Assembly: GCF_018283645.1 (NCBI RefSeq)
Contig: NZ_JAGSXH010000007.1
Location: 1-64,000 of the forward strand
Length of the DNA: 64,000 nt
Direction of reading: 5' to 3'
Origin: Actinocrinis puniceicyclus
Lineage (GTDB): Bacteria; Actinomycetota; Actinomycetes; Streptomycetales; Catenulisporaceae
Shown here piece after piece: positions 22,059 to 38,384 of this stretch; the first letter of the stretch is position 1; the number at the start of each line of letters is the position of its first letter. The position numbers were made by a program, and so were the translations under genes. The notes below the pieces were generated by a model that searched no databases, had not been told where the DNA came from, and worked only from the letters and a program-made list of their open reading frames with translations.

Positions 22059-22413
22059 AGGACAACCTCGCTATGCACGTGCTGGTGCCCGATAGCCGGG
22101 GCTGATGATGGTGTGGCTTGCGGAGATCTCTCACGCGGCTGACGACCGGGCCAAGGTTAGCGCCAGCACCCTTGCGAGACAAGACGCTGACTTCGGTGAG
22201 GACCGGCTGCCACGGCGGACGGTCGCGCACGCGGGGATGCGCGATCATGCTGCGATGAGCTGGAGGGGACTGTGGACGATCGCCGCGATCAAGGACGCTG
22301 ATGTGCGCCGCCTACGTAAGCGGTTCGAAGCCGCGGTCAACACGCGGCGCTCCGATCCAACAGTCGTGGAGGCATGGCGTCTTGGACCGCCGATCCGAAC
22401 CTGGAACCGGGTG
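22059..22413. other. Boundary between chromosome and mobile region
   Basis: About 355 bases that should hold the promoter of the 151-residue hypothetical gene on the left. A plus-strand frame here (GLWTIAAIKDADVRRLRKRFEAAV) stays open into the IS end at 22414 and could be a gene cut by insertion, but there is no proof. The left attachment site expected for element 1 was not found in this stretch. Confidence 0.35.
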
Positions 22414-22957
22414 TCAATGGCCACGAGGTTCTCCTTGTGGGCGGACAGGTGTTCTCCTTGCTGGTGGCCATCAGAAATCCCTGTAGATGGCCACGTGGAT
22501 CCCTGCTGGCGGACATCAGAAATCCCCAGGGCGTTCCCGCCCTCTGCCGCAGGTAGGCTGGGTGCAGTTGCGGACTGCCTGGTCCGTCCCGACCCGAGGG
22601 CAGGCCTAGCGCAGGGCTGGGCGCTCCCAGGCGGTGGTACAGATCGTCGATCTGGGCACCGCTCAAACCGACGGTCCGGCCCCACTGGCCGACGGCCCCG
22701 GTCACCACGGCCGTGCCGCGCAGCCGCATCGGCACCCCGAGCTCTCGCGCGAGCAGGCTCGCCGGCCAGTTGACCGGACGCCCTGCGGCGATGCCGTCCT
22801 CGTCGACCCACAGCGCGAGCCCGCCGTCGACCACCAGCCGCTCGACCGCCGCGCAGCCGATGACGGCACGAAGCCCGTGGATGACGCCGACGGACCGGTC
22901 GCGGGACAGTTCCACATCGGCCACGCGCCCGTCTCGGTCGATGCCCAACGCCTTCAT
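22337..22957 (-). CDS. DUF3846 protein with IS-derived 3' end
   Basis: The first 110 residues, MKALGIDRDGRVADVEL through PVNWPASLLARELGV and GTAVVTG, match the DUF3846 domain, a small family common on plasmids, phages and AICEs, with no known function. From about residue 143 the frame runs through the repeated IS21-type end at 22414-22530, so the original 3' end was replaced. It starts 28 bases after the istB stop on the same strand. It is probably a relic of element 1. Confidence 0.6.
   Translation of the reverse strand: MKALGIDRDGRVADVELSRDRSVGVIHGLRAVIGCAAVERLVVDGGLALWVDEDGIAAGRPVNWPASLLARELGVPMRLRGTAVVTGAVGQWGRTVGLSGAQIDDLYHRLGAPSPALGLPSGRDGPGSPQLHPAYLRQRAGTPWGFLMSASRDPRGHLQGFLMATSKENTCPPTRRTSWPLTPGSRFGSAVQDAMPPRLLDRSAAC
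22414..22530 (+). mobile_element. Solo IS21-type end with internal repeats
   Basis: This stretch starts TGTCAATGGCCACGAGG and carries repeated blocks. A 27-base unit ending CATCAGAAATCCC occurs at 22455-22481 and again at 22500-22526 with three mismatches, and the block GTTCTCCTTG occurs twice. Multiple repeats of this kind are the known hallmark of IS21-family ends, where the transposase IstA binds. No istA follows, so it is a solo end left after deletion. Confidence 0.55.
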
Positions 22958-22984
22958 GGGATGGGCTCTGGTTGACCGGGGCTT

Positions 22985-23610
22985 TTAGGTGAGCGGGACC
23001 ACGCCCCTGCCGGCCAGGGCCTCGGCGAGGCGGTGGGAATCGCCCTGGGTCTGGACGAAATGCGCGTGGTGCATGAGACGATCGATTCCTGCGGTCGCAA
23101 TGGTCTTGGGCATGATCGTGTCAAAGCCCGAAGGGTGAATGTTGCTGGTCACAGCTATGGAGCGGCGTTCATATGCGGCGTCGATGATCCTGTAGAAGGC
23201 CTCGGCCGCGTCGGCGGCCACCGGCAACAGGCCGACGTCATCGATCACGATCAGATCGGCCCGGCAGATCCGGGCCACCGTCTTGGCCATCGACCCGTCG
23301 ATCTTCGTGCGGGCCAGGGTGCTCTCCAGGGTCTCGAGGGTGAACCAGGCCACCCGCAGGTCGTTTTCGATCGCGGCGTGTGCGAGCCCCTCGGTGAAGT
23401 GCGATTTTCCTGTACCCGAGGGTCCGCTGACGACTAAATTCTCCTTGCGCCCGATCCATTCGAGGGTGGTTAGGGCGTTCTGGGTGGCGGTGGGGATCGA
23501 GGAGTCCTCCACGCGCCAGGACCCGAGGGTCTTGCCGGTAGGGAAGTGCGCGGCGACCCGGCGGGTGCGTCGGGTGGCCGAGTCCTCTGCCCTGGCAGGT
23601 GCTTGCGCTG
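22985..23610 (-). pseudogene. istB: Truncated istB (IS21 helper ATPase)
   Basis: The frame contains RRVAAHFPTGKTLGSW, Walker A VSGPSGTGKSHF, Walker B DLIVIDDVGLLP and the C-terminal LAEALAGRGVVPLT of actinomycete IstB. The normal N-terminal 40-60 residues are missing: homology stops near 23610, exactly where the AICE-type hairpin repeat begins. No istA is present upstream. The gene is therefore a fragment, and the IS cannot move by itself. The break marks a deletion or insertion joint inside element 1. Confidence 0.85.
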
Positions 23611-23618
23611 CCGGCGTT

Positions 23619-23747
23619 GGTCGGCGGGTCAAGACACGTTCTTCCGTCTTGACCTGTCGGCCGGCGTCTGGCACCCCTCGGGATGACGGGGCAGACGAGG
23701 GGGCCGGACCGACCCACCCACTTACCTCCTGCACCCTCCCGACCTGC
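23619..23747 (+). repeat. AICE non-coding repeat, copy 1 (with hairpin)
   Basis: This stretch aligns with 27872-27990 in element 2. It starts GGTCGGCGGGTCAAG, contains a 9-bp stem GGTCAAGAC (23627-23635) with GTCTTGACC (23646-23654), and goes on through CTGTCGGCC, a GTCTGGCA block and a C-rich tail. The same stem in the other copy has one A-T pair changed to G-C on both sides. It has no coding signs. Here it is wedged between the istB fragment and the rep remnant. Confidence 0.75.
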
Positions 23748-23754
23748 TGCTCTA

Positions 23755-24150
23755 CCCCCCTCCACCTGCAACGGGCTGGGTCGAACTATCGACCTCGACC
23801 ACTGGGACCTGACCGACCACGCCCGGACGCTGATCGAAACGTGTTGGCGGCTCGGCGCGATTGCGGAACTCGCACCGCTGCGGCTGCGCAAGTGGGCTCA
23901 CATGCTCGGCTTCGGCGGCCACTTCGCCGCCAAATCTCGCGGCTACTCGACAACCCTGGGCGCGCTGCGCCAGGAACGCGCCGACTACACCGCGCGCCGC
24001 GACCCGCTGACGCTCGCGCTCGTCGACAGCCCCGACGTGCTGGTCGTCAACCACTGGAACTACGCCGGACCGGCCGACCAACCGTCGTCATCGACGCCGC
24101 AGTCTGGCCACACCGACCACTCACCCGACCCGGAAGGAGGCCCCGAATAG
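23755..24150 (+). pseudogene. rep remnant of element 1 (C-terminal part)
   Basis: From about 23766 the frame reads CNGLGRTIDLDHWDLTDHARTLIETCW to NHWNYAGPAD and matches the last 120 residues of the complete Rep of element 2 (about 354-476) at high identity. The N-terminal zinc cluster and the HFH catalytic region are missing, so it cannot start replication. The remnant ends in a TAG at 24148-24150, right before the excisionase gene, in the same order as in element 2. Confidence 0.85.
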
Positions 24151-24158: not shown

Positions 24159-24362
24159 TTGACCGTCGAACAAGCCGCCGAACTGTTCAATACCACGCCG
24201 CGGTTCGTCCGCCGCCTGGTCGCCGAGCGGCGCATCACCGTCGTCCGCCTCGGCCGACACGTGCGCATCCCGCGCTCGGCCGTCGTCGACTTCGTCCAGG
24301 CCGGAACCGTTCTGCCGCTGTCGACTCGGCGCGCCGTTCGTCACCTGACGACGGTGGCCTGA
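24159..24362 (+). CDS. Excisionase-like helix-turn-helix protein of element 1
   Basis: The frame encodes LTVEQAAELFNTTPRFVRRLVAERRITVVRLGRHVRIPRSAV, a MerR/Xis-type DNA-binding fold of about 67 residues. A perfect AAGGAGG lies at 24134-24140, six bases before an ATA codon at 24147 that overlaps the rep stop. A former ATG there would be ideal. As it stands the first usual start in frame is TTG at 24159, 18 bases from the ribosome site. The gene may thus be weakly expressed or silent. Its stop overlaps the integrase ATG. Confidence 0.75.
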   Translation: MTVEQAAELFNTTPRFVRRLVAERRITVVRLGRHVRIPRSAVVDFVQAGTVLPLSTRRAVRHLTTVA

Positions 24363-25525
24363 TGGCTGGCAAGCGGCGCTTCGGCCGCATCCGGCAACTG
24401 CCTTCCGGCCGGTATCAGGTGCGCTACCTCGGCCCGGACGGCGTCGACCGACCCACGCCGGAGACCTTCCGCACCAAGACCGAGGCGGAAAAGTGGCTGG
24501 TAGACAAGGAAGCCGAGATCAACCGGGATGACTGGATCAACCCGGACGCCGGCGCGGTCTCGCTTGAGCAGTTCGCCGAGGAGTGGCTTCGCGACCATCC
24601 GAAGATGCGGGCCTCGACGCGGGCGCGGTCGGTCGGTCTGCTCCGGCTGCACATCGTGCCCTACCTCGGCGGCAAGCCAATTGGAGAGATCAAGCCCGCG
24701 GACATTCGCCGCTGGTACAAGCAGATCAACGATGGCGGCCTCGGCTCTGCCTCGGTCGCGCGGGCGTACTCGCTGCTGCGGGCCATCTTCAACACCGCCC
24801 GGAAGGATGAGGTGATCCGTCGCAACCCGTGCCAGATCGACGGCGCGGCGCTCTACAAGTGGAAGGAGCGGCCCGTTCTGACGATCAGCGAGATATACAC
24901 GCTGATAGATCGGATGCCGGACCGCTACAAGGCGCTCGTCCTGCTCGGCACCTTCACCGGCCTGCGCTGGGGCGAGCTGGTCGGGCTACGGCGGCGGAAC
25001 ATCGACGTGGTGGCGTGCACGGTGACGGTTGAGTCGATCGTCGTCGAGGTCGACAACGGCCGGATACTGCTTGACCAGAAACCGAAGTCAGACGCGGGCC
25101 TGCGTACCGTGGCGTTCCCCTCGCAGATCGGCCCGGCCCTGGCCGGCCACCTCGCCGCCTTCGTCGACGCCGCGCCGGACTCGTACGTGTTCACCTCGCC
25201 GCTCGGCGGCGTGCTGCGGCGGGCGAACTTCCGGCGGCTCTGGCTCGACGCACTCAAGGACGCGGGCGTGCCTCAGATCAGGTTTCACGACCTCCGCCAC
25301 ACCGGAGCGACAATCGCGGCCCAAACCGGCGCGACCCTGAAGGAGCTCATGCAACGGATCGGGCACTCCACGCTGAACGCGGCGCTCGGCTACCAGCACG
25401 CTTCCCAGGGCCGTGACCACGTGATCGCCGCCGCGCTGGACAAGATGATCTCGAAGGAACGGGCTCGGCAGGCCAAGGCCAACAAGGCGAAGAAGAAGCC
25501 ACCGGAGAGCGGCTCCTCGGCCTGA
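24362..25525 (+). CDS. int: Tyrosine integrase of element 1
   Basis: The 387-residue recombinase has an N-terminal AP2-like arm-binding part (RRFGRIRQLPSGRYQVRYLGPDG), a SAM-like core-binding domain (about 70-160) and a catalytic domain with Arg in GLRWGELVGL, HDLRHTG, GHSTLNAALGYQH with nucleophile Tyr, and a Lys/Ala-rich tail. It should integrate its element into tRNA-Ala. The ATG overlaps the excisionase stop. The attachment core begins 18 bases after its stop. It is clearly different from the integrase of element 2 over the N-terminal half. Confidence 0.93.
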   Translation: MAGKRRFGRIRQLPSGRYQVRYLGPDGVDRPTPETFRTKTEAEKWLVDKEAEINRDDWINPDAGAVSLEQFAEEWLRDHPKMRASTRARSVGLLRLHIVPYLGGKPIGEIKPADIRRWYKQINDGGLGSASVARAYSLLRAIFNTARKDEVIRRNPCQIDGAALYKWKERPVLTISEIYTLIDRMPDRYKALVLLGTFTGLRWGELVGLRRRNIDVVACTVTVESIVVEVDNGRILLDQKPKSDAGLRTVAFPSQIGPALAGHLAAFVDAAPDSYVFTSPLGGVLRRANFRRLWLDALKDAGVPQIRFHDLRHTGATIAAQTGATLKELMQRIGHSTLNAALGYQHASQGRDHVIAAALDKMISKERARQAKANKAKKKPPESGSSA

Positions 25526-25527
25526 TC

Positions 25528-25544
25528 GGGCACGCAACGGGCAC
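25528..25544. other. Candidate integrase arm site A (GGGCACG pair)
   Basis: GGGCACGCAACGGGCAC is a pair of GGGCAC(G) units ten bases apart and sits directly beside the attachment core. A nearly identical 17-mer (16 of 17 bases) occurs at 26836-26852. Short direct repeats next to an attachment core are the usual binding sites for the N-terminal arm domain of tyrosine integrases; the role here is inferred. Confidence 0.5.
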
Positions 25545-25627
25545 AAAGACCCCTCACCATGATCGGTGAGGGGTCTTTGTGCTGGTGGAGCCAAGGGGAC
25601 TTGAACCCCTAACCCCCGCCTTGCAAA
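25544..25627. repeat. Attachment site between elements 1 and 2 (att, 84 bp)
   Basis: This segment repeats at 38270-38353 with two mismatches (25564 C/T and 25578 T/C). It contains a 13-bp stem hairpin (AGACCCCTCACC type) and the 3' half of tRNA-Ala up to the anticodon arm (CCGCCTTGCAAA). After 25627 the sequence leaves the tRNA. It is the left border of element 2 and the right border of element 1. Confidence 0.95.
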
Positions 25628-25723
25628 TTCGCTCGGCCGTTCGACTCACCGGTGCCCGCGCTGCTCAGCCTCGGTCGGCACACGCTGGGAGGGACCGCCA
25701 GATACCACGCTGTCCCCCTCCGT

Positions 25724-25745
25724 TGATGTCACTGCGGATGTCACC
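25724..25745. other. Candidate integrase arm site B, left (GATGTCAC pair)
   Basis: TGATGTCAC and GATGTCACC repeat 13 bases apart here, just inside the left border of element 2. The same pair occurs at 38251-38270 beside the right core. The matching arms on both ends of the element suggest binding sites for its own integrase. Confidence 0.45.
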
Positions 25746-25753
25746 AATCGAGC

Positions 25754-26692
25754 TCAGCCGATGATCAGATCTTCGGTACCTGGCCACGCCAACGCAACGC
25801 CGGCGCGCTCACATAACTCGAGCCAACGAAGGCTGGACGGCTTCCTCTCGACCCATAGGACTCCTCGCACCGCGGTCGATCGCGCCGCAAGCAAATCGAG
25901 GTAGTCAAGGATCTGGCCCAAGCCCATGCGTAGTTGACGCGTCTCGCTCGCGTCGGTGAGCGACTTCACCTCGCAAACGGTGAGCGTGCCGTCCGCGTCA
26001 TGCCAGGCGATGTCGAAGTCAGGGTCTTCTGGAAGCGGGGACAGCGGGATGCGACCGCGCGCATCCAGTGCCTTGGCCAGATCGTTTTGGAGCCGGCGAT
26101 GAGCGCTGAGGTTCCGGCCGATCAGGTCCGGGTCAGGGATTCCTGGCAGAGCGGGCGCCGGCTGTACCGATTCGTCCGCTGGCTGGTAGGTACCTCCTAC
26201 CGGCAACGTCGGGATGGTGATCGGCTCGGAGCGCTCGGCGCGGACTAGATGAAACTGGATCACCTGACGCATGGGTCCGTTGCCGGTCTCCGGCGCCTGG
26301 CCGTAGCTGAATGGCTCGACGTCGTCCAGAACAAACTCGCCCACGTAGCGAACTTCGCCCTTGGCACCATCAAACAGGCGCAAGTGGCGGCCCTGCTCAA
26401 TGCAGTCCCTGATGGCGCGGTTTCCGCGAACAAACTCCTGGTCACCGTGCTGTCCCTCGCCTGTGTACCGAAAGGTTCCATCCTCGGCCCACCGGTCATA
26501 GTAGCCGTGGAAGTGCCCTGAGCGTGGATCGGTGAAGATCAAGATGTTCGGCGACTCGCGGCACGGACTGATGCCGTTCTGGTTGCTGCCTCCGTACCGC
26601 GCGTGCAGCTCTACTCGTCGAACGAGATCACCAGGGGCTAGATGCCAGTCGTCACCCTGCACAGCCTCGATAGTCATATGAACATACTGCAT
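25754..26692 (-). CDS. Putative modification-dependent nuclease: ScoMcrA/SRA-like N-domain plus PD-(D/E)XK
   Basis: The 312-residue protein has two parts. Residues 24-150 (VELHARYGGSNQNGISP, FTDPRSGHFHGYYDRW, YTGEGQHGDQ, RYVGEF) match the N-terminal domain found in many actinomycete HNH restriction enzymes such as the ScoMcrA group, where it helps read modified DNA. Residues 195-305 look like a RecB-type PD-(D/E)XK nuclease: Asp227 in FDIAW, Glu241-Val-Lys243 and a Q260-xxx-Y264 motif. The HNH domain usual after such a head is absent. It lies at the left edge of element 2, a common cargo position, and likely serves in defence. An ATG five codons downstream is an alternative start. Confidence 0.7.
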   Translation of the reverse strand: MQYVHMTIEAVQGDDWHLAPGDLVRRVELHARYGGSNQNGISPCRESPNILIFTDPRSGHFHGYYDRWAEDGTFRYTGEGQHGDQEFVRGNRAIRDCIEQGRHLRLFDGAKGEVRYVGEFVLDDVEPFSYGQAPETGNGPMRQVIQFHLVRAERSEPITIPTLPVGGTYQPADESVQPAPALPGIPDPDLIGRNLSAHRRLQNDLAKALDARGRIPLSPLPEDPDFDIAWHDADGTLTVCEVKSLTDASETRQLRMGLGQILDYLDLLAARSTAVRGVLWVERKPSSLRWLELCERAGVALAWPGTEDLIIG

Positions 26693-27402
26693 CAGGCTGC
26701 CGACGACGTCCGGGGAACTATTGCTTTACAAAGGGCCTGATATCGATCTAGAGTTCGAGCATGAGTCGCTGGCCTGCGGCCTAGCGGCCGATTGTCCGTG
26801 AGTACACGCGACTGACCCTGGCCACCTCTCCAAACGGGCACGCGACGGGCACGCTATCGGTACCATCAGAGCTGTCTCTCTATCGAGAGGAGGTGATGGC
26901 CTTGCCGACGTTCTCTCTGACGTTGTCGCTGGCCTTAACCTCGACGACGCCTTGGACAGCAGGGAGTCGCTATAAACGCCTGTGAAGGTACCCGAGCCCC
27001 GCGAAACCCAAGCATTGGGCGTGACCAGCTCTTTCAGGTCATTGGGTGCCGCTGAAGCAGGAAGGCCCAGCCTCAGCAACTGGGTCATTCCGGGGAAGTA
27101 ATTCCACCGGCCCGCCGTTGCTCCATACTTCGGCGATGGTCCAGCCATTATGGCTAGCCTCATCCGAGGCCGGGTGCCGGAGTTCGCTCCGGCACCCTCC
27201 TGGCCTCTTCGTCCCGAACGTCGTTCCGCGTCGTCGGCTAGTCTCGTCGGCTGTCGACTGATGGCCGTTGTCGCAGCTCGGCTGTCGTCCGTTGTCGGCC
27301 AGTGTCGTCTGTTGTCAGAGACTTCGCTGACTTCCTGCTGAGTCAACTGGTTGCTTAGAGGTGGTGCCGTAGCTTCTCTCACGGTCACGGCATCACCCGC
27401 CG
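26693..27402. other. Non-coding stretch in element 2 with arm-like and GTCGTC-like repeats
   Basis: About 710 bases without a convincing gene. It holds the GGGCACG pair at 26836-26852, a strong ribosome-site-like GAGAGGAGG at 26885-26893 only two bases before ATG 26896 (29-codon frame, unsupported), and a run at about 27225-27330 with repeated short units of the type GTCGTC/GTTGTCGGC. A 313-codon minus-strand frame across the region is Arg/Ser/Thr-rich and not convincing. Confidence 0.45.
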
Positions 27403-27618
27403 TTACGCTCGCAGCCGCCTCACCGCGAGGGCTGCGCACGGGCTCGTCGCGAGAGCGAAGCCGACCAGCGGCGCCGGTTCGTGCTGAATCGCGAGCACCC
27501 CTGCTATGGCGCAGGAGCAGGCGTGGATAGCCACGGTGCACAGTCCGGCGCCTACGCGTTCCGCGATTCGGAGCCATCCGGCGGTTGACAAGGGCTGCTG
27601 TGGATCGGGCAGACTCAT
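27403..27618 (-). CDS. Small membrane protein of element 2 (71 residues)
   Basis: The protein starts MSLPDPQQPLSTAGWLRIAERVG and has two likely membrane segments (about 26-45 and 50-66). AGGAGG sits five bases before the ATG at 27618, which makes this start very convincing. I do not recognise a family. It is transcribed away from the hairpin repeat copy 2. Confidence 0.75.
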   Translation of the reverse strand: MSLPDPQQPLSTAGWLRIAERVGAGLCTVAIHACSCAIAGVLAIQHEPAPLVGFALATSPCAALAVRRLRA

Positions 27619-28654
27619 AGTGCCTCCTGAGTGGGGCGACGGTCCGCCTGAGCCGACTACCGGCCAAGGCATTTCGGCTCAGGCGGGCTGGACTCCGCCA
27701 TGATTCTGCGACCCGTCAACGCCCGGTAGGGCGTTACTCCAAATGGGTGACGCGCGCTGACCTGCCTCTTTGTATGCTTTATCAAGCTCCTACCGGCGGA
27801 GCGCAGCTAGTTTTTCGGGCTGAGGTTCTGGTATCTCCTCGATCGGGCAAGCTCCTGCTTTGCCGGGCGGTGGTCGGCGGGTCAAGGCCGCCTTTTGCCT
27901 TGACCTGTCGGCCGTCGTCTGGCAACCCTCGTGGTGACCGGGCGAGGAGGTGCCAGGGCCGACCCACCCTCTTCCTTCCCCTACCCTCCCGCACCGGTTG
28001 CTCCGCCTATCTCCGAGGAGGGCCGGGGGTTCGGGGGCAGCGCCCCCGTGTTCTCGAACGGCACGCTGTCTGGCCTGCTGGTGTTCGGCTGTTCGGGCTT
28101 CTGGTGCAGGTGGGCGCTGTGCCTGTCGAGTGCCGGGAGCTGCTGACTGCTGCGGGCGTCGTGGGTGTCGTTGTGTCCGTGCCCGTCCTGCTGTGTGTGC
28201 TGTCCTGTGTCGTGTCTCGCGGACGCTGGCGCGCCGGCCGCGCGCGGAACGCTGGCGCGGGTCCGGCAGCGCCGAAGCGGTCCGCGGTAACCTCGTGCGC
28301 CTGGGCCCTGCCCGTTCAGCTCGGCCGATGGCTCAGCTTCGTCGTCGTGCCCGCGGGCGTCCTGCTGGCGCGTCCGGCGTGACTGTCCGGCTTCTCGCCT
28401 GGGAGCGTGCGCGCGTCCTGCTTCCGGGTTCGCCCGGCGCGGGCCGAGACGGAGTCGGGGCGAAGACAGGAGACGACGGCTCGGGCGGCGACGGGCTGCA
28501 CACCGCGAAGCGGTGTGCCTTGATCCTCGTAGAGAAAGTTCTAGCCCATTGATCGACTGCGCTCGCTGGTGCAAACGTGCTTCGCTTGCTTCGCGCACCA
28601 GAACTCTGATACGGCTACGGCTGTCGTCGCTGGAACGAGGCAAAGGCAGCGTAG
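27619..28654. other. Long GC-rich non-coding region of element 2
   Basis: About 1 kb separates two small genes. It contains the hairpin repeat copy 2 (27872-27990), then a G/C-rich block at about 28015-28050 with the inverted repeat GGGGGC/GCCCCC, and long frames with Arg/Ala/Ser bias that look like shadows. In this class of element such space can hold the conjugation clt locus or replication sites, but no such site is proven here. Confidence 0.5.
27872..27990 (+). repeat. AICE non-coding repeat, copy 2 (with hairpin)
   Basis: This is the counterpart of 23619-23747. The hairpin is GGTCAAGGC (27880-27888) and GCCTTGACC (27897-27905) with an eight-base loop. One base pair differs from copy 1 by a change on both strands (A-T to G-C), while the loop differs in sequence and length. 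The downstream CTGTCGGCC, GTCTGGCA and GACCCACCC blocks are shared. The pattern points to selection on structure. Confidence 0.75.
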
Positions 28655-29206
28655 ATGGATCTCGCGACTCAACTTGTAACGATCGTCGGCGTTCTCGTGG
28701 GCGCTCTGTCGACGTACGTTGCGAGTTACCTCGTGGAACGCGGCAAGGATCGTCGCGGCCTCGCGCTGCGGTGGGATGAACGCAAGCTAGACACGTACGT
28801 GTCTTACGTCGCTCACGTGCGTGACGTGATCTATGCCGCGGTGCTGCTCTTCGAGTCCAGAGAGGGTCTGCGGACGATCGACAAGACGATTGATCAGCTC
28901 ACTCTGGGACTCATTGATGCGGAGCGGTCGCGCGCCCTGCTGTTTGAACAGCTCGTGTTGCTCGGCGGCGCTGAGGTCGTCGACGCTGGCCATGAGCTGA
29001 ATCGGGCCGTGCTGGCGATCGACTGGCGGGCGCGCGAACTCACTGATGAGGACCTGCCGGGCTGGCGGGCGCTGCACGTTCGCGCGTTCCAGCTGATCAA
29101 CGAGTTTCACAACGCTGCGCGCTCAGATCTCGGCGTGCGGGGCGAACTGGCTGCCGACCACTCGGGGCTGACGCTCAACCTGCCGTCGGCGCGGCAGGAC
29201 TCGTGA
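28655..29206 (+). CDS. Membrane-anchored hypothetical protein
   Basis: The 183-residue protein starts MDLATQLVTIVGVLVGALSTYVASYLVERGKDRR: one N-terminal membrane segment (about 5-27) followed by a charged, helical cytoplasmic part. This layout is common in actinomycete mobile elements and prophages, with unknown role. The stop overlaps the 3' end of the convergent glycosyltransferase gene by 32 bases. The ribosome site (GAGGCAAAGG) is acceptable. Confidence 0.75.
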   Translation: MDLATQLVTIVGVLVGALSTYVASYLVERGKDRRGLALRWDERKLDTYVSYVAHVRDVIYAAVLLFESREGLRTIDKTIDQLTLGLIDAERSRALLFEQLVLLGGAEVVDAGHELNRAVLAIDWRARELTDEDLPGWRALHVRAFQLINEFHNAARSDLGVRGELAADHSGLTLNLPSARQDS

Positions 29207-29957
29207 CGCTCGCCGGCTGCTGCTTTGCCAGTTCAGCGATGGCGTCGGCGCGCTCGCTGATCAACTGCATGCGCAGGGTCCACGTGGTCGCCTCCTTGTG
29301 CTCGGGCTGGGCCGAGACCTGGCCGGGCCATTTGCGGTAGAGCAAGCCGACTTCGCCGATGAAGTAGCCGGTACCGAGCATGCTCGCGGCAATCAGCATC
29401 CCGGTGTCATCGGAGCCGGGTACGGACATCCACCCGCCGACAGCTGTGACCAGGTTGCGGCGGATGCACACGGTCGTGGGGTGCACGGGCAGCCGGTAGT
29501 TGTGCTCGCGCCAGTGCTTCAGGATCTGGCCCGGATACAGGCGGCCGGTCGGCGGGTCGTTGTCGAAGCCGATAGTCGAGCCGTCCGGCATGAGGTCGAG
29601 CACGCGGGAAGTGGTCCATTGAACGTCGGGCTTGGCTTCGAGCACTGCGATATCGCGGGCAAGAGAGCCCGTGGTGAGCTGGTCGTCCTGGTCTAGGTTC
29701 TTGATCAGGTGACCCTTAGCGCGGGCGAGAGCAAGGTTCCGCGTGATCGCCACACCACCGTGCGGGTTGAACCCGAAACTGATGCGCTCATCGTCGGGCA
29801 GGATCGCTCGGGCGCGTCCCGTCTCGCCGTCCTCTTGTACGACCCATTCCCATTGCCAGCCGGCCGGGAGGTCTTGCGCGGCGAGTGCGTCGTATGCGGC
29901 TGTCAGGTACTCCGGTTCTGGCTGGTAGACCGGCGTGAGTACAGAGATGGTGTTCAT
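29175..29957 (-). CDS. Family 2 glycosyltransferase
   Basis: The 260-residue protein has the GT-A fold start ISVLTPVYQPEPEYLTAAYDAL, then FNPHGGVAITRNLALARAKG and the metal-binding acidic motif NLDQDDQL, followed by an acceptor-side region with TGYFIGEVGLLYRKWPG. It would transfer a sugar from a nucleotide donor; the acceptor is unknown. No membrane segment is present. The gene overlaps the upstream GntR regulator by four bases, so the repressor and the transferase are translated together. It is unusual cargo for a conjugative element. Confidence 0.85.
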   Translation of the reverse strand: MNTISVLTPVYQPEPEYLTAAYDALAAQDLPAGWQWEWVVQEDGETGRARAILPDDERISFGFNPHGGVAITRNLALARAKGHLIKNLDQDDQLTTGSLARDIAVLEAKPDVQWTTSRVLDLMPDGSTIGFDNDPPTGRLYPGQILKHWREHNYRLPVHPTTVCIRRNLVTAVGGWMSVPGSDDTGMLIAASMLGTGYFIGEVGLLYRKWPGQVSAQPEHKEATTWTLRMQLISERADAIAELAKQQPASVTSPAAPTAG

Positions 29958-30751: not shown

Positions 30752-30790
30752 CTGATGCCTCCTCGCGTCCCTCACACATTAGCTCCTCAA

Positions 30791-30840: not shown

Positions 30841-30875
30841 AAGAGAACTAGACGTATAGATGACTGGAGAAGCTT

Positions 30876-31193: not shown

Positions 31194-31196
31194 GCC

Positions 31197-31412
31197 GTGC
31201 TGCTGCTGGTTCTGCTTGTGGTGGTGCCGGTCGCCGTGGTGTTCGCCGCCCGGCGGCTGGCCGGCCACCCCATGGTGCTGGTCGGCCGCGATTTGGCGGT
31301 CTCGGTGTTCCTGGTGGGTCGGTTCGTGTACCGGGCGGCCCGGTTGCTGGTCCGGTTCATTGTGGGGGAGGTGCGCTCATGGCAGATCTCGCGTTCGTCG
31401 TTCCGGGCGTGA
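31197..31412 (+). CDS. Small membrane protein of the transfer operon
   Basis: The 71-residue protein has one or two hydrophobic segments (about 2-18 and 27-45) with Arg-rich flanks. The start is GTG, three bases after the previous stop, and the last 34 bases overlap the translocase gene. Small membrane proteins at this place are typical of AICEs and may help the translocase at the membrane; that is inference. Confidence 0.75.
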   Translation: MLLLVLLVVVPVAVVFAARRLAGHPMVLVGRDLAVSVFLVGRFVYRAARLLVRFIVGEVRSWQISRSSFRA

Positions 31413-32713
31413 TCGCCGCTGCTCCGATGCTGGTGACCTCGGTGTCCGCGGTGAGGTATGTGCGGGCCGATCGGCTCGGGCGGGCGGTGTTGCGTAAGGG
31501 CTGGCGTATCCGGTTCACCTGGCGTCGTACCGCGCTGCGCTGCGGCCTGTATCAAGCCGACCAGGCGGCCCCGGCCGGCGGAGAGACGCTGATGATGCGT
31601 TCGCGTGACCGGCTGCTGATCCCGCGCATCGCCGTCGCTCCCGGACCGAACGGCCTGACGGTGAGCGTCAAGACGGTGGGTCAGGTCGGGTTGGAGGACT
31701 TCGAACGTTCCGCCGACGACCTGGCCAACGCCTGGCGCGTGCGCTACCTGGAAGCCTCGCCAGCCCGGCCCGGGTACCTGACGCTGCGGGTCGTGCTGCG
31801 TGACGCGCTGCGCCAGCGCACGCTCTTCGTTCCCTCCCCGGATGCCCCGGTGGACCTGCGCACGTGGGTTCTCGGCGTCGGCCGCGACGGGCAACCGGTG
31901 AAGGTGCGTACCGCGGAGGTCTCCGGCATCGCGGTGGGCGGCCTGTCCGGCTACGGCAAGACCAGCCTTGTCTACCACCGCTTCGCCACCCTCGCACCGT
32001 CGCCGCTGGTGCAGTTCGCGCTGATCGACGGCAAGGACTTCGAACTGTCCGACCTTAAGGCCCGCGCCTACCTGCACTGCGGCGACGACCTGGACCGGGC
32101 GCACCACATCGTCTCGCAGGTGCACGCCCTGTACACCGACCGGAAGAACGCGATTCGCGCCGTGCTGCGCCGACGCTCCTTCTGGGCCGGTGACCCGATC
32201 GAGGCATGGCCGCTGACCGTGCTGGTGATCGATGAGGCACACACCTTCCTGCACGAGACCAAGAGCACCGACCCGGGCGCGAAGGACCGCAACAACCGGG
32301 TGCGCGACATCGTCGGGATGCTCGACGAACTGGTGCGCAAAGGCCGCACCGTCGGCATTCAAGTCATGCTGCTGACCCAGAAGCCGACCGGGGAGGCGAT
32401 CCCGACCACGATCCGGGATAACTGCCAGATCGCGCTGTCCTTCGCGCAGCGCTCCAAGGAAGCCGCGATCGCCGCGCTCGGCGACGACATCAACGACTAC
32501 CCGCACGCCCACCCGCGCCGCCTGCAAGACCCCGCCTATGTCGGCGTGGTCTCGGTCCTGGCGGAGGGCCGCCCCGGCTACAGCCTCGCCCGCATCCCGT
32601 ACGTGACCGACCGCGACGCGATCGCCCTTGCGGCCTCGACCGCGCACCTGACCGCCGACCCGCGCCGGCTGCTGGCCGCCGCGCTCGCCCCGGCCGACAC
32701 CATCCCCGCCTAA
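31379..32713 (+). CDS. FtsK/SpoIIIE-type conjugal DNA translocase (TraB/TraSA-like)
   Basis: The 444-residue ATPase has a Walker A GGLSGYGKTS at about residues 187-196 and Walker B VLVIDEAH near 281-288. One hydrophobic N-terminal segment (about 5-22) is followed by a soluble domain. In actinomycete elements one such hexameric translocase moves double-stranded DNA between hyphae without a type IV secretion system. The size is near that of TraSA of pSAM2, and it is the key transfer gene of element 2. Confidence 0.9.
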   Translation: MADLAFVVPGVIAAAPMLVTSVSAVRYVRADRLGRAVLRKGWRIRFTWRRTALRCGLYQADQAAPAGGETLMMRSRDRLLIPRIAVAPGPNGLTVSVKTVGQVGLEDFERSADDLANAWRVRYLEASPARPGYLTLRVVLRDALRQRTLFVPSPDAPVDLRTWVLGVGRDGQPVKVRTAEVSGIAVGGLSGYGKTSLVYHRFATLAPSPLVQFALIDGKDFELSDLKARAYLHCGDDLDRAHHIVSQVHALYTDRKNAIRAVLRRRSFWAGDPIEAWPLTVLVIDEAHTFLHETKSTDPGAKDRNNRVRDIVGMLDELVRKGRTVGIQVMLLTQKPTGEAIPTTIRDNCQIALSFAQRSKEAAIAALGDDINDYPHAHPRRLQDPAYVGVVSVLAEGRPGYSLARIPYVTDRDAIALAASTAHLTADPRRLLAAALAPADTIPA

Positions 32714-32789
32714 CCAATCATCCCCGCAGTTCAGTGCCACGCGCGCAAAGTCCCTACCCGTCCCATGCCTCAACCCGGAAGGAGGCGAC

Positions 32790-32987
32790 ATGCCTCGTAA
32801 GTCAAGGCCCGTCGTTGTCGAGCCGGACCCGTGCCCGGCCTGCCAGGGCTCGGGTCAGACTGCGCAGCCGGTCACCCGTCGTCGCGGCACCGTGCGCGGC
32901 CAGATGGGCGTCTGCCTGGCCTGCCTTGGCACCGGTACCGCTGACAACGCTCCGGCCATTGCCTCGACCGCCCGGCCGCACCTGTAG
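32790..32987 (+). CDS. Small zinc-ribbon-like protein
   Basis: The 65-residue protein has two pairs CPACQGSG and CLACLGTG, a DnaJ-like CxxCxGxG arrangement that should bind zinc. A strong GGAAGGAGG lies six bases before the ATG. Proteins of this type occur in most AICE operons beside spd genes; the function is unknown. Confidence 0.78.
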   Translation: MPRKSRPVVVEPDPCPACQGSGQTAQPVTRRRGTVRGQMGVCLACLGTGTADNAPAIASTARPHL

Positions 32988-33093
32988 ATCCGGCCGCCGC
33001 CGCTGGCCACCAGTCCACGCCCCTCGGCCTGGTGACCGGCGCGACCTACCCGGCTCAACAAACCAACACCCGAACACAGAGAGGAGAACTGAC

Positions 33094-33423
33094 ATGGACG
33101 GCATCGAACTGCTCACCCTGGCCGCCGGCGTCGGTGGCACCCTGACCGGCTTCTTCCTCGGGCTGCGCGTGTGCGGCCCCCGCATCCAGATCGAGTGGAC
33201 CGAGCGTCACCCGCGCGAACTGGCCCAGCAGGTACGCGACGGTGAACTGAACCTCTCCGCACTGACCGAGCACTCCCGCCGCCTGGTACTGGCCGAGCTG
33301 GCCCGGATGGGCAACGGCCTGCCGATCGAGGCCTCCGCGCAGTTCCTGGCCGTCACCGGCATCCAGGGCCGGTACGTCGGCAAGCCGGAACCGCACTGGG
33401 CGCACCGGATCGAGTCCCGCTGA
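33094..33423 (+). CDS. Hypothetical AICE protein (109 residues)
   Basis: The protein begins MDGIELLTLAAGVGGTLTGFFLGLRV, one membrane segment, followed by a helical soluble part with RELAQQVRDGELNLSALTEHSRR. The ribosome site GAGAGGAG precedes the ATG by eight bases. Its stop overlaps the next start (ATGA). I do not recognise a named family. Confidence 0.72.
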   Translation: MDGIELLTLAAGVGGTLTGFFLGLRVCGPRIQIEWTERHPRELAQQVRDGELNLSALTEHSRRLVLAELARMGNGLPIEASAQFLAVTGIQGRYVGKPEPHWAHRIESR

Positions 33424-33671
33424 TGACCGCCCCTACCTGCGCCCTTCAGCTGCCGCTGTTCGCCGAGACCACCGGCGGGCCGGAAGACCGCATCCCCTCG
33501 GACGGGCTCACGCTCGACACCCCCGCCGGCCCGGTCGACCTGGTTGCCGTCCAGCGGGCCCTGGACGGTGAGCGCCTGCACCTCACGCGCGCCGAGCACC
33601 GCTACATCGCCGCCCAGGTCCGCGCACACCTGACCGTGCGCCCCGCCAACCGTAAGGAGGTTGCCAGATGA
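33423..33671 (+). CDS. Hypothetical AICE protein (82 residues)
   Basis: The protein has a Pro/Leu-rich N-terminus and a C-terminal helix pair (DLVAVQRALDGERLHLTRAEHRYIAAQVRAHL). It overlaps both neighbours by a few bases, which argues for coupled translation within the operon. No motif or membrane segment is visible. Confidence 0.7.
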   Translation: MTAPTCALQLPLFAETTGGPEDRIPSDGLTLDTPAGPVDLVAVQRALDGERLHLTRAEHRYIAAQVRAHLTVRPANRKEVAR

Positions 33672-34402
33672 CCGCCTTTCGCCGCTTCACCGATGGTGTC
33701 CTGTTCCAGGCCGTGCTGACCGGCTCGCTCTCCTTCTCCCACATCCACGACCTCGCGGCCGTGCACGGACAGTCCGGCTGGAAAGCGTGGCTCTACCCGC
33801 TGTCCGTCGACCTGCTCACCGTGGCCGCCTACCGCAAGCTGACCGCCGCGCGCTCGACCAAGGCCCCTGCCGGCCTGGCCTGGTGCGCCTTCCTGCTCGG
33901 CCTGGCCGCCTCCCTCGCGGCGAACATCCTCGGCGCGTGGCAGAACCCTGACCGGCTAGTCGCAGTCGCCCTCGGCGTCTGGCCCGCCGTCGCCTTCCTC
34001 GTATGCACCCTGCTCACCCACGACCCGACACCCGCCACGGCTCCCGCTCCGGCTCCGGCACGGGCTGATGTTCCGGCCGTGGTCGACGCAACCGCCGCGC
34101 TACCGGTCATTGCTGCCGCTCGGCCGGTCGACTCGATCCGCACGTCGTTGAGCCGTGTCGTCGAGCAGGTCGAGCCGCTGGCCGCACCCGCGCCCGTGGC
34201 CGCTGCCTCGTCGGAGCCGGTGCCCGAACTGCCGGAGGTGTCTCCGAAGTTCCTGGAGTGGGCCCGCCGCGTCGCCGACGAACACCAGACCGTCACCGGA
34301 ACCCCGATCGACCTGACCACCCTGGCCCGCAAGCTGCGCGTCAATCCGCCCCTCGCCCGCGCCGTCCACACGCACCTGCTCACCGGATCGGCAGGTGCCT
34401 GA
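33668..34402 (+). CDS. DUF2637 membrane protein (Spd-like)
   Basis: The 244-residue protein has an N-terminal half with about four membrane segments (ending near residue 118), the layout of DUF2637, and a C-terminal Pro/Ala-rich linker followed by a helical domain (FLEWARRVADEHQTVTGTPIDLTTLARKLRV) that may bind DNA. DUF2637 proteins of conjugative elements are linked to intramycelial spread (pock formation). The ribosome site AAGGAGG precedes the ATG. Confidence 0.82.
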   Translation: MTAFRRFTDGVLFQAVLTGSLSFSHIHDLAAVHGQSGWKAWLYPLSVDLLTVAAYRKLTAARSTKAPAGLAWCAFLLGLAASLAANILGAWQNPDRLVAVALGVWPAVAFLVCTLLTHDPTPATAPAPAPARADVPAVVDATAALPVIAAARPVDSIRTSLSRVVEQVEPLAAPAPVAAASSEPVPELPEVSPKFLEWARRVADEHQTVTGTPIDLTTLARKLRVNPPLARAVHTHLLTGSAGA

Positions 34403-34610
34403 CGTGGCCGACACGACCCAAGCCGTCTATCTGGAGCTGGCCGTACGCGCCCTGGAGAACGGCGACCGCCCCGCCCTCGCCGGAGCGCTCGCGTCCCTCG
34501 ACCCCGCCACCCTCGACCACCTCGCCGCCGTCCTCGCGCACCCCGTGTGGGCAGGGCTTGCCAACCACTACCCGCAAGCTCTCGCGGCCATGCCGCTACC
34601 GCGCCGCTGA
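34395..34610 (+). CDS. Hypothetical AICE protein (71 residues)
   Basis: This short Ala/Leu-rich helical protein starts with GTG at 34395 inside the previous gene (a second GTG at 34404 is an alternative). Its core reads AVYLELAVRALENGDRPALAGALASLDPATLDHLAAVL. No family is recognised, but gene overlap and codon use fit the operon. Confidence 0.65.
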   Translation: MPDVADTTQAVYLELAVRALENGDRPALAGALASLDPATLDHLAAVLAHPVWAGLANHYPQALAAMPLPRR

Positions 34611-34728
34611 CCGGTCCCGTGACCGGTGCGCCCAGGAGGAACGGCCTTTCCTCTCGCCAAAGACAGAACGGCCGTCCCCCCGGGCTCCTCCCACTACCCG
34701 CAAGAGCAGAGATGGAGGTGTTCTCATC

Positions 34729-35505
34729 ATGCCCGAAACCCGCTTCTACCTCGGTGCCCATCACCCCAACTGGCTGAGCCTGGTTGACTTCCCGCTGTTC
34801 ATCTCGCACCGCCGCCTGACCGGACGCGCGACGCTGCCGCGAGCTCGCGCACCCTGGGCGCTGGACTCCGGCGGCTTCACCGAACTGAGCATGTACGGCG
34901 CCTGGCAGACCACACCCGAACAGTACGTCGCCGCCGTACGCCGCTACCGCGACGAAATCGGCCTGCTGACCTGGGCCGCACCGCAAGACCTGATGTGCGA
35001 ACCGTTCATGCTCGCCAAAACCGGCCTGAGCGTCACCGAGCATCAGGCTCGCACCGTCGGCAACTACCTGCGGCTGCGCGAACTCGCCCCGGACCTGCCG
35101 TTCGTCCCCGTTCTGCAAGGCTGGGTGCTGCCCGACTACCTCGCCTGCCTGCGTCGCTACGAGCGTGCCGGAATCGACCTTGCTACGCTTCCGCTGGTCG
35201 GCCTGGGCTCGGTGTGCCGCCGCCAAGCCACCGGACAAATTGCCGCGATCGTCAGTGTCCTGGCCGGTCTCGGCTTGAACCTGCACGGGTTCGGCGTCAA
35301 AACCCTGGGTCTGAGCCACTACGCCGAACACCTGGCCTCGGCCGACTCGATGGCCTGGAGCCTGAACGGCCGTCACACACCTGGGTGCACCCCCACCCAC
35401 CGCAACGAAGCCAACTGCCTGCCCTTCGCGAGCTCCTGGCGCCGACGCATCCTCACCGCGCTGCGCAGCGTGCAACTGAGCCTGCCGGTTGGTGGTGCCG
35501 CGTGA
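34729..35505 (+). CDS. TGT/DpdA-like 7-deazapurine base-exchange protein
   Basis: The 258-residue protein resembles tRNA-guanine transglycosylases. WALDSGGF (D46) matches the DSGGF substrate motif, VLQGW (128-132) and VGLGS (157-161) match the base-recognition strands, HGFGVK (186-191) follows, and Asp206 in SADSMAW is placed like the catalytic Asp. A C-x9-C pair (220, 230) replaces the usual zinc site. Short proteins of this kind in actinomycete elements are annotated as DpdA-like; DpdA puts preQ0 into DNA. No preQ0 genes lie nearby. GGAGGTG is eight bases before the ATG, and the stop overlaps rep. Confidence 0.75.
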   Translation: MPETRFYLGAHHPNWLSLVDFPLFISHRRLTGRATLPRARAPWALDSGGFTELSMYGAWQTTPEQYVAAVRRYRDEIGLLTWAAPQDLMCEPFMLAKTGLSVTEHQARTVGNYLRLRELAPDLPFVPVLQGWVLPDYLACLRRYERAGIDLATLPLVGLGSVCRRQATGQIAAIVSVLAGLGLNLHGFGVKTLGLSHYAEHLASADSMAWSLNGRHTPGCTPTHRNEANCLPFASSWRRRILTALRSVQLSLPVGGAA

Positions 35506-36932
35506 CCGACACCCTCGACCTGGCCGCGCTCGGCTTCCGAAGCGGCGACCTCGGCTCGCTCGTGCGCGTCGTCCAGGCGAAAGACCTGCTCGACCGAGCC
35601 GGGACCTGCGAACGTCCGTTGCGGCTGGTCGGCGGCCGTGACGTGATCGAAGCCACTACCGGAACCCTGCTCGACTCGACCACCGACCAGCAGATCACCG
35701 TCTCGTGCGGCAACCGCCGCGCCTCGGTATGCGGCTACTGCTCCACGCTGTACAAGTTCGACGCCTACAACCTCGTAGCCGCTGGCCTGCGCGGAGGAAA
35801 GAACACCCCCGCCGCCGTCGCCGCGCACCCCCGACTGTTCGTCACCGTCACCGCCCCGTCCTTCGGCCCGGTGCACCTCGGCCCGGACAAGTCCGGCCAG
35901 CTTCGCCCGTGCAAGCCGCGGCGCGACGGCTCCGGCTGCGTTCGTTGGCATCGCGCGGATGACCCGCTGATCGGGACGCCCCTCGATCCGTCCACCTACG
36001 ACTATCAGGGCCATGTCCTGTTCAACGCCATGGCGGGCGCGCTGTGGTCCGCCACCCTGACCGAGATTCGCCGCGCGCTGGCTCGACGCCTCGGCCTACC
36101 CCGCCGCCGCGCCGAGAAGCTGGTACGGGTCAACTTCGCCAAGGTCGCCGAGTACCAGGCGCGCGGCATCGTGCACTTCCACGCGGTCGCCCGCCTCGAC
36201 GGACCGGACGGACCGCTCTCGCCTCCGCCAGCCTGGGCAACCGCTGAACTGCTGGAGCAAGCGATCCGGGAGGGCGTCGCCCGCACCTCGGTCGAGGTGC
36301 CCGAGTCCAAGGCTCTCGGCGCTCCGGTTCTGGCCTGGGGCGAGCAAATCGACGTACGCGCGATCGCCGCCGGGCAGTTCGACCACGCCGACGACCTGAC
36401 GGATGTGCGCGTGGCCCGCTACATCGCCAAGTACGCCACCAAAGCCGCCGAGTCCGCCGGTGTCGAGCTGCCGCCGATGGCCTGCCGTACCTGCGCCGGC
36501 TCCGGCCGCGTCACCCTGCGCACCCTCGACCGACCGGACGCGCTCGTACCCTGCTCCGCCTGCTCAGGCATCGGCCGCACCCTCGACCTGGACCAATGGA
36601 ACCTGACCGACCACGCCCGCCGACTCATCGACACCTGCTGGCAACTCGGCGCCATCCGCGAACTCGAACCGCTCCGGCTGCGCAAGTGGGCTCACATGCT
36701 CGGCTTCCGCGGCCACTTCGCCACTAAATCCCGCACGTACTCGACCACCTTTGGCGCGCTGCGCCAGGAACGCGCCGACCACACAGCACGCCACGACCCG
36801 CTTACCGCCGCACTGGCCGAGTCACCCGACGTACTCGTGATCAACCACTGGAGCTATGCGGGACCGGCGGACGCTTCGGCGTCCTCTCCGATCCCTCGTC
36901 ACATGCCTGACCTGGAGGGGGCCGCGCCATGA
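35502..36932 (+). CDS. Replication initiator of element 2 (RepSA-like)
   Basis: The 476-residue protein has a zinc-type cluster CGNRRASVCGYC (69-80), an HUH-like H225-F-H227 in GIVHFHAVARL, a candidate catalytic Tyr in YIAKYATK (about 307-314), and two CxxCxGxG knuckles (about 328-357). This is the layout of rolling-circle initiators of AICEs such as pSAM2 RepSA. The start GTG overlaps the stop of the DpdA-like gene. The C-terminal 120 residues are duplicated as a remnant in element 1. Confidence 0.88.
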   Translation: MTDTLDLAALGFRSGDLGSLVRVVQAKDLLDRAGTCERPLRLVGGRDVIEATTGTLLDSTTDQQITVSCGNRRASVCGYCSTLYKFDAYNLVAAGLRGGKNTPAAVAAHPRLFVTVTAPSFGPVHLGPDKSGQLRPCKPRRDGSGCVRWHRADDPLIGTPLDPSTYDYQGHVLFNAMAGALWSATLTEIRRALARRLGLPRRRAEKLVRVNFAKVAEYQARGIVHFHAVARLDGPDGPLSPPPAWATAELLEQAIREGVARTSVEVPESKALGAPVLAWGEQIDVRAIAAGQFDHADDLTDVRVARYIAKYATKAAESAGVELPPMACRTCAGSGRVTLRTLDRPDALVPCSACSGIGRTLDLDQWNLTDHARRLIDTCWQLGAIRELEPLRLRKWAHMLGFRGHFATKSRTYSTTFGALRQERADHTARHDPLTAALAESPDVLVINHWSYAGPADASASSPIPRHMPDLEGAAP

Positions 36933-37117
36933 CTGTGACCGACATCGACGCCCTGACGGTGCCTGAGGTGATGGCCGCGCTTCGGGTGGGCCGCCATGCC
37001 GTCTATGACCTGATCCGTTCTCGTCAACTGGCCTCGATCAAGGTCGGGCGTGCCCGGCGCATCCCGGTAACCGCCTTGTCCGCGTACATCACCCGTCGCC
37101 TGGAGGAGCAGTACTGA
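36929..37117 (+). CDS. xis: Excisionase of element 2
   Basis: The 62-residue protein has a MerR/Xis-type helix-turn-helix (LTVPEVMAALRVGRHAVYDLIRSRQLASIKVGRARRIPVTAL). It directs the integrase to excise. It overlaps the rep stop by four bases and the integrase start by one base, the standard rep-xis-int order. The start is an ATG, unlike the damaged counterpart in element 1. Confidence 0.88.
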   Translation: MTVTDIDALTVPEVMAALRVGRHAVYDLIRSRQLASIKVGRARRIPVTALSAYITRRLEEQY

Positions 37118-38253
37118 TGGCCAAACGCAACGCCAATGGCATGGGTACGGTGACGCTGCGCAAAGACGGGCGCTGGCAGGCTGCTGTCTACGTGCTTCAG
37201 CCTGACGGCACCGAGAAGCGCAAGTTCGTCTACGGCAAGACTCGTCAGCAGGTTGAGGATGCGCGCCGCAAGCTCGTCGACAAGGCACGCGCCGGCATCC
37301 CGACTCCGACGCGCTCGCCTCGGCTGAGCGAGTGGCTTCCGTTGTGGCTTGAGGAGGTCATCAGGCCGCAGCGCAAGAAGACCACTCATTCGAAGTACGC
37401 CATGCACATCCGGCTATACCTCGTCCCGATGCTGGGCGCGAAGCGGCTGGAGGCTCTGAGTGTGTCGGAGGTGCGCAAGTTCCTGAACGCTCACGCTCAG
37501 CAGAACACCGCCGCGACGGCCAAGGAGTCTCACAAGGTGCTCCGGTCAGCGTTGTCGGCGGCCTGCCGGGAAGAGTTGATCTCGCGGAACGTCGCCATGC
37601 TCGTCGACTCGCCCCGTGTCGAGTCCGCCGTGCACGACCCATGGACGATTGACGAGACGCTGGCCTTCCTGAAGGTCGCCCGCGGCGACTCCACGTATGC
37701 GGCCGTTCTGCTGGCGATCGCGCTCGGGCTGCGGCGCGGTGAGATTGTCGGCCTGAAGTGGTCGCAGGTCGACTTCGGCTCGCGGACGATCCGGCTCGGC
37801 CGACAGCTCCAGCGTCGTGACGGCGTGCTCTACGAGGATGAGACCAAGGGCCGCAAGCGCTCGATGCCGCTTCCGCTGGTCTGCGTGATCGCGCTGCGCT
37901 GGCAGCGTCTTCGCTGGCTCTCGATGCGCGAGAAGGCCGGTGCCGGCTGGGTCGCGAATGACTGGGTGTTCGTCACCCGCACCGGTCGTCCGGTCGAGGG
38001 GCGCAACCTGCACCGTTCGTTCGTGAACCTCGCGCAGCGGGCCGGCGTCCGCTCGGTTCGCCTCCACGACGCTCGGCACGGCTTCGCCACGCTCCTGGCA
38101 GACTCCGGCGTCGAACCGCGGCTACTGATGGAACTGCTCGGGCACTCGCAGATCGCCGTGACCATGAACGTCTACACGCACGTGGTCGAGAAGTCGAAGC
38201 GGGAGGCGATCAAGACCGTTGACCGGCTGCTGAGGCCCGACCGTCCGCACTGA
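37117..38253 (+). CDS. int: Tyrosine integrase of element 2
   Basis: The 378-residue recombinase has an N-terminal beta-rich arm-binding part (GMGTVTLRKDGRWQAAVYV), a core-binding domain (about 70-160), and catalytic Arg in GLRRGEIVGL, HDARHGFAT, and GHSQIAVTMNVYTHV with nucleophile Tyr. It integrates and excises element 2 at tRNA-Ala. The core starts 17 bases after its stop. It shares the fold but little sequence with the integrase of element 1. Confidence 0.93.
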   Translation: MAKRNANGMGTVTLRKDGRWQAAVYVLQPDGTEKRKFVYGKTRQQVEDARRKLVDKARAGIPTPTRSPRLSEWLPLWLEEVIRPQRKKTTHSKYAMHIRLYLVPMLGAKRLEALSVSEVRKFLNAHAQQNTAATAKESHKVLRSALSAACREELISRNVAMLVDSPRVESAVHDPWTIDETLAFLKVARGDSTYAAVLLAIALGLRRGEIVGLKWSQVDFGSRTIRLGRQLQRRDGVLYEDETKGRKRSMPLPLVCVIALRWQRLRWLSMREKAGAGWVANDWVFVTRTGRPVEGRNLHRSFVNLAQRAGVRSVRLHDARHGFATLLADSGVEPRLLMELLGHSQIAVTMNVYTHVVEKSKREAIKTVDRLLRPDRPH

Positions 38254-38270
38254 TGTCACCTGCTGATGTC
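38251..38270. other. Candidate integrase arm site B, right (GATGTCA pair)
   Basis: TGATGTCACCTGCTGATGTC carries GATGTC twice, 14 bases apart, right at the edge of the core. It matches the pair at 25724-25745 inside the other end of element 2. Confidence 0.45.
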
Positions 38271-38353
38271 AAAGACCCCTCACCATGATTGGTGAGGGGT
38301 CTTCGTGCTGGTGGAGCCAAGGGGACTTGAACCCCTAACCCCCGCCTTGCAAA
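38270..38353. repeat. Right attachment site of element 2 (att, 84 bp)
   Basis: This copy of the 84-bp repeat overlaps the 3' half of the intact tRNA-Ala and carries the hairpin AGACCCCTCACC/GGTGAGGGGTCT. Element 2 lies between this copy and the one at 25544-25627. Integration here keeps the tRNA whole. Confidence 0.95.
38272..38303. terminator. Hairpin in the att core, terminator for tRNA-Ala and integrase
   Basis: AAGACCCCTCACC and GGTGAGGGGTCTT pair over 13 bp around the loop ATGATT. On the minus strand it follows the tRNA-Ala 3' end by six bases and ends in TTTGACATC; on the plus strand it follows the integrase. The element copy at 25546-25577 keeps the whole stem. Confidence 0.8.
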
Positions 38354-38384
38354 GGCGGTGCTCTGCCAGTTGAGCTATGGCCCC
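38309..38384 (-). tRNA. tRNA-Ala (anticodon TGC)
   Basis: The acceptor GGGGCCA pairs with TGGCTCC, the anticodon loop TTTGCAA gives TGC between CCGCC and GGCGG, and the T-arm has GGTTCAAGTCC. The CCA is encoded (38309-38311). It is the integration target of both elements and sits in the conserved gyrA - tRNA-Ile - tRNA-Ala neighbourhood. Confidence 0.96.

Follow-up and report, generated by a model that had tools for sequence, protein, structure and literature searches.

Tandem accretion of a complete-looking AICE and an AICE remnant at a tRNA-Ala gene of Actinocrinis puniceicyclus, with a probably chimeric right end in the remnant

Two dissimilar integrases beside one attachment sequence

How two unlike tyrosine integrases came to be followed by nearly the same attachment sequence at a single tRNA gene is the question raised by this locus of Actinocrinis puniceicyclus. 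The window analyzed here is the whole stretch of 64,000 nucleotides at the start of contig NZ_JAGSXH010000007.1, and the sample comprised one genome of the genus Actinocrinis. The analysis of the att sequences reveals a direct repeat of 84 nt (25544-25627 and 38270-38353) with two mismatches (98% identity), both in the hairpin (C/T and T/C), whose 24-nt core was reached in 0 of 100 shuffles and is thus far beyond chance. Each copy opens with a 36-bp hairpin and continues through the 3' half of tRNA-Ala(TGC) as far as the anticodon loop (...CTTGCAAA), and each stands directly 3' of a different tyrosine integrase gene, the distance from stop codon to repeat being 18 nt for int1 and 16 nt for int2. 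The repeat, its two mismatches and its place behind each integrase had been proposed by a first-pass annotation, and all three were borne out. The features that define this junction are as follows:

24362-25525, + strand: int1, tyrosine integrase of the distal element E1, 387 aa (Pfam PF00589, 4e-17)
25527-25544, + strand: E1 arm repeats CGGGCACGCAACGGGCAC, int1 type (place and pattern as the TGGCACG repeats in int1-lineage loci)
25544-25627, + strand: attL of the proximal element E2, which is also the right att of E1 (hairpin 25544-25579, tRNA-Ala 3' half 25583-25627)
37117-38253, + strand: int2, tyrosine integrase of E2, 378 aa (Pfam, 5e-26)
38251-38271, + strand: E2 arm repeats TGATGTCA...TGATGTCA, int2 type (conserved in int2-lineage loci)
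38270-38353, + strand: attR of E2 (hairpin and tRNA-Ala 3' half)
38309-38384, - strand: tRNA-Ala(TGC), regenerated by the 3' half of E2 (ARAGORN, Rfam)
39919-39993: tRNA-Ile(GAT)

Overall, the reading that we consider likely is a tandem accretion of two AICE-type elements, the E1 remnant and then E2, in which the right end of E1 is chimeric.

E2 is a complete-looking AICE and E1 a remnant

E2 occupies 25.6-38.35 kb and presents as a complete-looking AICE, with an integrase beside an att at a tRNA gene, a RepSA initiator, and attL and attR in direct repeat:

25628-38269, + strand: E2 body, complete-looking AICE, about 12.7 kb between the att copies (gene content; empty site in the relatives G001 and G003)
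25754-26692, - strand: cargo, SRA-like domain protein (Pfam SAD_SRA 2e-5, under the curated cut-off)
27814-28546, + strand: repeated non-coding region with a hairpin at its end (copies in contigs C44, C399 and C118 and in E1)
29175-29957, - strand: cargo, glycosyltransferase family 2 (Pfam 1e-8)
29954-30775, - strand: GntR/UTRA regulator (Pfam 4e-20)
31379-32713, + strand: TraB/FtsK-like transfer ATPase (NCBIfam plasmid_TraB 8e-7, Pfam FtsK 0.01; both under curated cut-offs)
33668-34402, + strand: DUF2637 membrane protein, in an SpdB-like place (Pfam 2e-13)
34729-35505, + strand: cargo, DpdA-like protein (Pfam PF23859 2.5e-94)
35502-36932, + strand: RepSA replication initiator (Pfam PF20199 2e-132)
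36929-37117, + strand: xis2, excisionase-like HTH protein, 62 aa (Pfam HTH_17 2e-12)

The translation of the TraB/FtsK-like ATPase holds a Walker A motif (GLSGYGKTS). The genes of E2 are those of a pSAM2-type AICE, the TraB/FtsK-like one being a putative member, and E2 resembles such AICEs in its RepSA initiator, its apparent tra-rep-xis-int order, its tRNA target and the regeneration of the tRNA 3' end, whereas its tRNA-Ala target, integrase lineages and cargo (DpdA, glycosyltransferase family 2 and SRA-like) set it apart from them.

The following features lie to the left of E2:

22337-22957, - strand: DUF3846 protein gene on the E1 side (Pfam PF12957, E=3e-10)
22985-23734, - strand: orphan IstB-like ATPase gene on the E1 side (Pfam IstB_IS21 2e-38, NCBIfam IS21_help_AAA 6e-54)
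23609-23752, + strand: partial copy of the E2 non-coding repeat (full copy at about 27814-28546), 80% identity, at the left junction of the Rep remnant
23767-24150, + strand: RepSA C-terminal fragment of E1, 127 aa, N-terminal part missing
24159-24362, + strand: xis1, excisionase-like HTH protein of E1, start codon uncertain (translation read by eye; E2 xis in the same place)

No IstA was recognised beside the IstB-like gene. The int1 reading frame is intact. E1 lacks the combination of int, rep and tra between two atts that marks an AICE, with a truncated Rep, no recognised tra and no left att, and its left end lies somewhere between about 18.96 and 23.6 kb. A third att copy, for which a search left of 22.4 kb had been suggested, was found neither in the window nor in the remainder of the 100,633-bp contig, and anticodon-loop words used as queries between 18.2 and 23.8 kb returned no degenerate copy. 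A candidate on contig C118 was rejected, being a displaced 3' half of tRNA-Ala(GGC) that matches the element on contig C310. E1 is therefore a remnant made up of a RepSA C-terminus, an excisionase, int1 and a right att, and the description of the locus as a pair of integrative elements does not hold in the sense of two intact units. E2 is predicted to be capable of excision with Int2 and Xis2, and E1 is predicted not to excise alone.

The two elements had further been called unrelated, which must be given up because the E1 RepSA fragment is 72% identical to the E2 RepSA in amino acids (about 80% in DNA). It is also 76% identical to the fragment on C44 and 75% identical to the RepSA on C95. Given the shared Rep, E1 and E2 are backbone relatives with unlike recombination cassettes.

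Stacking at this tRNA is of a known kind

In two genomes of the same family (G001 and G003), the tRNA-Ile/tRNA-Ala/tRNA-Leu neighbourhood is present and the site holds no integrase. These genomes are syntenic with the window as far as 18239 (G001) and 18962 (G003), and again from the tRNA onward; tblastx synteny was left out as noisy. Consecutive elements with att copies of one tRNA between them, together with these empty sites, mark the locus as a tandem accretion, and the repeat, tRNA and integrase data uphold the earlier view of two different integrases accreted at one tRNA. Within Catenulisporaceae, this tRNA-Ala serves as a hot spot: G006 has a stack there too, an int1-like element and then another integrase, and G011 carries a third integrase type.

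Stacks with hairpins of both lineages were also found at tRNA-Arg and tRNA-Val in related genomes. At tRNA-Arg of a 9,025,608-bp chromosome, an int1 element lies distal and an int2 element proximal, with unlike hairpins and a 43-bp core. We take this stack to be the published Sav3708/Sav3728 pair of S. avermitilis. On that identification, the pair has the same order of lineages as the window, but differs in that its hairpins are unlike each other, only the 43-bp core repeats, the target is tRNA-Arg, and about 0.8 kb separates the distal integrase gene from its own att. Sav3708 and Sav3728 of Streptomyces avermitilis are tandem AICEs at tRNA-Arg with integrases from two subfamilies (PMC3218068), and because the same int1-distal/int2-proximal stack stands in that published array, accretion of this kind was already known. 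A tRNA-Arg hot spot in rhizosphere Streptomyces is described, in the portion of the report consulted, as holding several AICEs and remnants with integrases 39-88% identical, with module exchange and decay to defective elements in the stacks (PMC9513070). It is similar to the window in gathering AICEs and remnants with unlike integrases at one tRNA, and different in tRNA and host, and that portion makes no mention of exchanged att hairpins. We confirm the locus as an AICE accretion that is mostly ordinary, with a less usual detail in its att hairpins. The stack illustrates cleanly how mobile elements and their remnants build up at tRNA hot spots.

Two integrase lineages with overlapping targets

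Both integrases carry a tyrosine recombinase domain (Pfam), and they share 24% identity over about 370 aa, nearly their full length, which agrees with their earlier description as dissimilar and is far from identity above 70% throughout. Relatives of int1 at tRNA genes reach 51% identity, and those of int2 in the Streptomyces group reach 62%; a class-wide int2 search returned no relative closer than these. The int1 tree has long branches and does not place the window int1 firmly. Elements of the int1 lineage target tRNA-Gly(TCC, CCC), Arg(CCT), Val(TAC), Thr(TGT) and Ala(TGC), and those of the int2 lineage target tRNA-Arg(CCT), Val(TAC), Thr(TGT) and, in this window, Ala(TGC). Since several tRNAs are used by both, target sharing between the lineages is common. 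Changes of tRNA-target label number at least 14 on the int1 tree and 8 on the int2 tree.

The first-pass annotation had left two options for the shared core, convergence or exchange. Convergence on one core is nothing unusual, given shared tRNA targets and the corresponding stack in S. avermitilis (PMC3218068). One could go further and suppose that unrelated elements evolved the same target independently, so that the 84-bp identity is simply host tRNA plus host terminator. The use of the same tRNAs by both lineages in many hosts fits this explanation, but the element itself carries the hairpin, attL hairpins are unlike attR hairpins in most clean insertions, the terminators differ in the empty-site relatives G001 and G003, and the Rep backbones of E1 and E2 are related, which together make it very unlikely.

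The hairpin of E1 resembles int2-type hairpins

The exchange option was examined by comparing hairpins over 39 nt without gaps, with 85 int1-lineage elements in the comparison. The E1 hairpin is identical to that of E2 at 37/39 positions and to those of int2-lineage elements at other tRNAs at 32-33/39, while its best match to any other int1-lineage element is 26/39. Apart from E1, no element among the 85 of the int1 lineage scores above 29/39 against any int2 hairpin, and the mean for other cross-lineage pairs sharing a tRNA is 16.2/39 (maximum 22, n=202). Across lineages, hairpins do not track the target tRNA instead of the integrase (16.2 vs 16.8 of 39), and within int2 a weak effect of the target tRNA was seen (partial r 0.14, p 0.02).

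Where a single element of either lineage is inserted, identity between attL and attR mostly covers the tRNA 3' half alone (43-46 bp) and the hairpins differ, which indicates that a hairpin normally travels with its own integrase gene. Exceptions with hairpin-like sequence common to attL and attR occur in several single insertions (e.g., L162, L163, L172 and L173). The window departs from most insertions, as its repeat identity continues through the hairpin. As far as the junction, the E1 arms agree with those of the same-family int1 element in G006, and beyond it the two sequences part. The G006 tRNA has mismatches to its displaced copy on both sides of the T stem, which places strand exchange at or near the anticodon loop.

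Part of this likeness could reflect shared design and not exchange. Some int1 elements of Streptosporangiales have the same layout, with arms followed directly by a hairpin with a CATGATCGG loop and an int-to-tRNA distance of about 56-57 nt. The CATGATCGG-loop hairpin was accordingly rejected as an int2-exclusive mark, similar loops being present in Streptosporangiales int1 loci (80 named int1 loci), and the claim of exchange therefore rests on the whole 39 nt. Over that length, the hairpin values (37/39 to E2, at most 26/39 to other int1-lineage elements) favor the exchange half of the earlier proposal.

A probably chimeric right end and how it may have formed

Ordinary insertions keep hairpin and arms together with their integrase gene, and the E1 hairpin stands at 37/39 to E2 and at most 26/39 to int1 types. 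The right end of E1 is therefore probably chimeric: int1 and arms of the int1 type would be fused, just past the arm repeats, to a hairpin and core of the int2 type. E1 would have entered tRNA-Ala(TGC), downstream of tRNA-Ile, first, and E2 would have integrated later into the tRNA-Ala rebuilt by E1, so that it adjoins the tRNA. Strand exchange by Int2 most likely took place in the tRNA part of the core, probably in the anticodon loop; with exchange inside the tRNA core, the attP of E2 would rebuild the tRNA and leave the former 3' half at 25583-25627. The source of the chimera may have been a past recombination or deletion with another int2-type element at the same tRNA, and the forming event may have been a deletion between stacked elements, a cassette swap or a gene conversion.

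A cassette swap would make E1 an int2-type element whose xis-int cassette, arms included, was replaced by an int1-type one while Rep and hairpin/core were kept. The E1 Rep C-terminus and hairpin/core both match E2 around an unlike xis-int, one Rep clade occurs with several integrase types (C44, with an int2-like fragment, G003 and G011), and switching of integrase and excisionase has been reported for AICEs (PMC9513070). However, the Rep clade is common in the Actinocrinis genome, so the Rep likeness of E1 and E2 is not specific, and a deletion between stacked elements could yield the same junction, which leaves the swap a tentative option with roughly one chance in three. Gene conversion between att copies 12.7 kb apart, after the arrival of E2, is less probable still: the tract is short and flanked by an identical 45-bp tRNA part, but unlike hairpins persist in related stacks of the same geometry, and it would be fortuitous for the tract to stop exactly at the arms.

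It is an evenly balanced matter whether an attP hairpin-plus-core can pass between integrase lineages in AICE stacks, so that an integrase with its own arms comes to act on the core of another lineage; E1 would then be a captured case, its junction falling exactly between arms and hairpin. The chimera, if true, would highlight one route for re-pairing integrases and attachment sites. Such re-pairing would in turn be relevant to the switching of integrases between tRNA targets, as both lineages have moved among several tRNAs.

Other AICE traces in this genome and its relatives

The other two tRNA-Ala genes of the genome also bear AICE traces: tRNA-Ala(CGC) (L150, C44) has a Rep and an int2-like C-terminal remnant, and tRNA-Ala(GGC) (L008, C310) has an integrase 41% identical to int2, with a displaced tRNA half on C118 (L007). 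In relatives, the elements of G006 (L142) and G011 (L143) have unlike integrases and one and the same unusual 3' half of tRNA-Ala (CAACGAGACTCGAACTCGCAACC), a further hint that cores are shared between integrase types. In G005 (L135, 1872-6366), a 4.5-kb segment between whole and partial tRNA-Ala copies contains a transposase-like ORF and encodes a 977-aa protein; no tyrosine integrase was found in it. In G007 (L137, 1627-1700) and G004 (L138, 1514-1587), a cut in the anticodon loop ends the native tRNA-Ala, and right behind it stands a different, complete tRNA-Ala, which suggests that the element supplies an entire replacement gene.

The genome has a recurring non-coding region of about 0.7 kb at five sites linked to AICEs (window 27814-28546, C44 at L150, C399 at L151, C118 at L007, and E1 23609-23752), and the window copy has no Rfam match. 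In three copies, the terminal hairpin varies on both sides of its stem, e.g., GCACACCGC/GCGGTGTGC versus GCACGCCGC/GCGGCGTGC.
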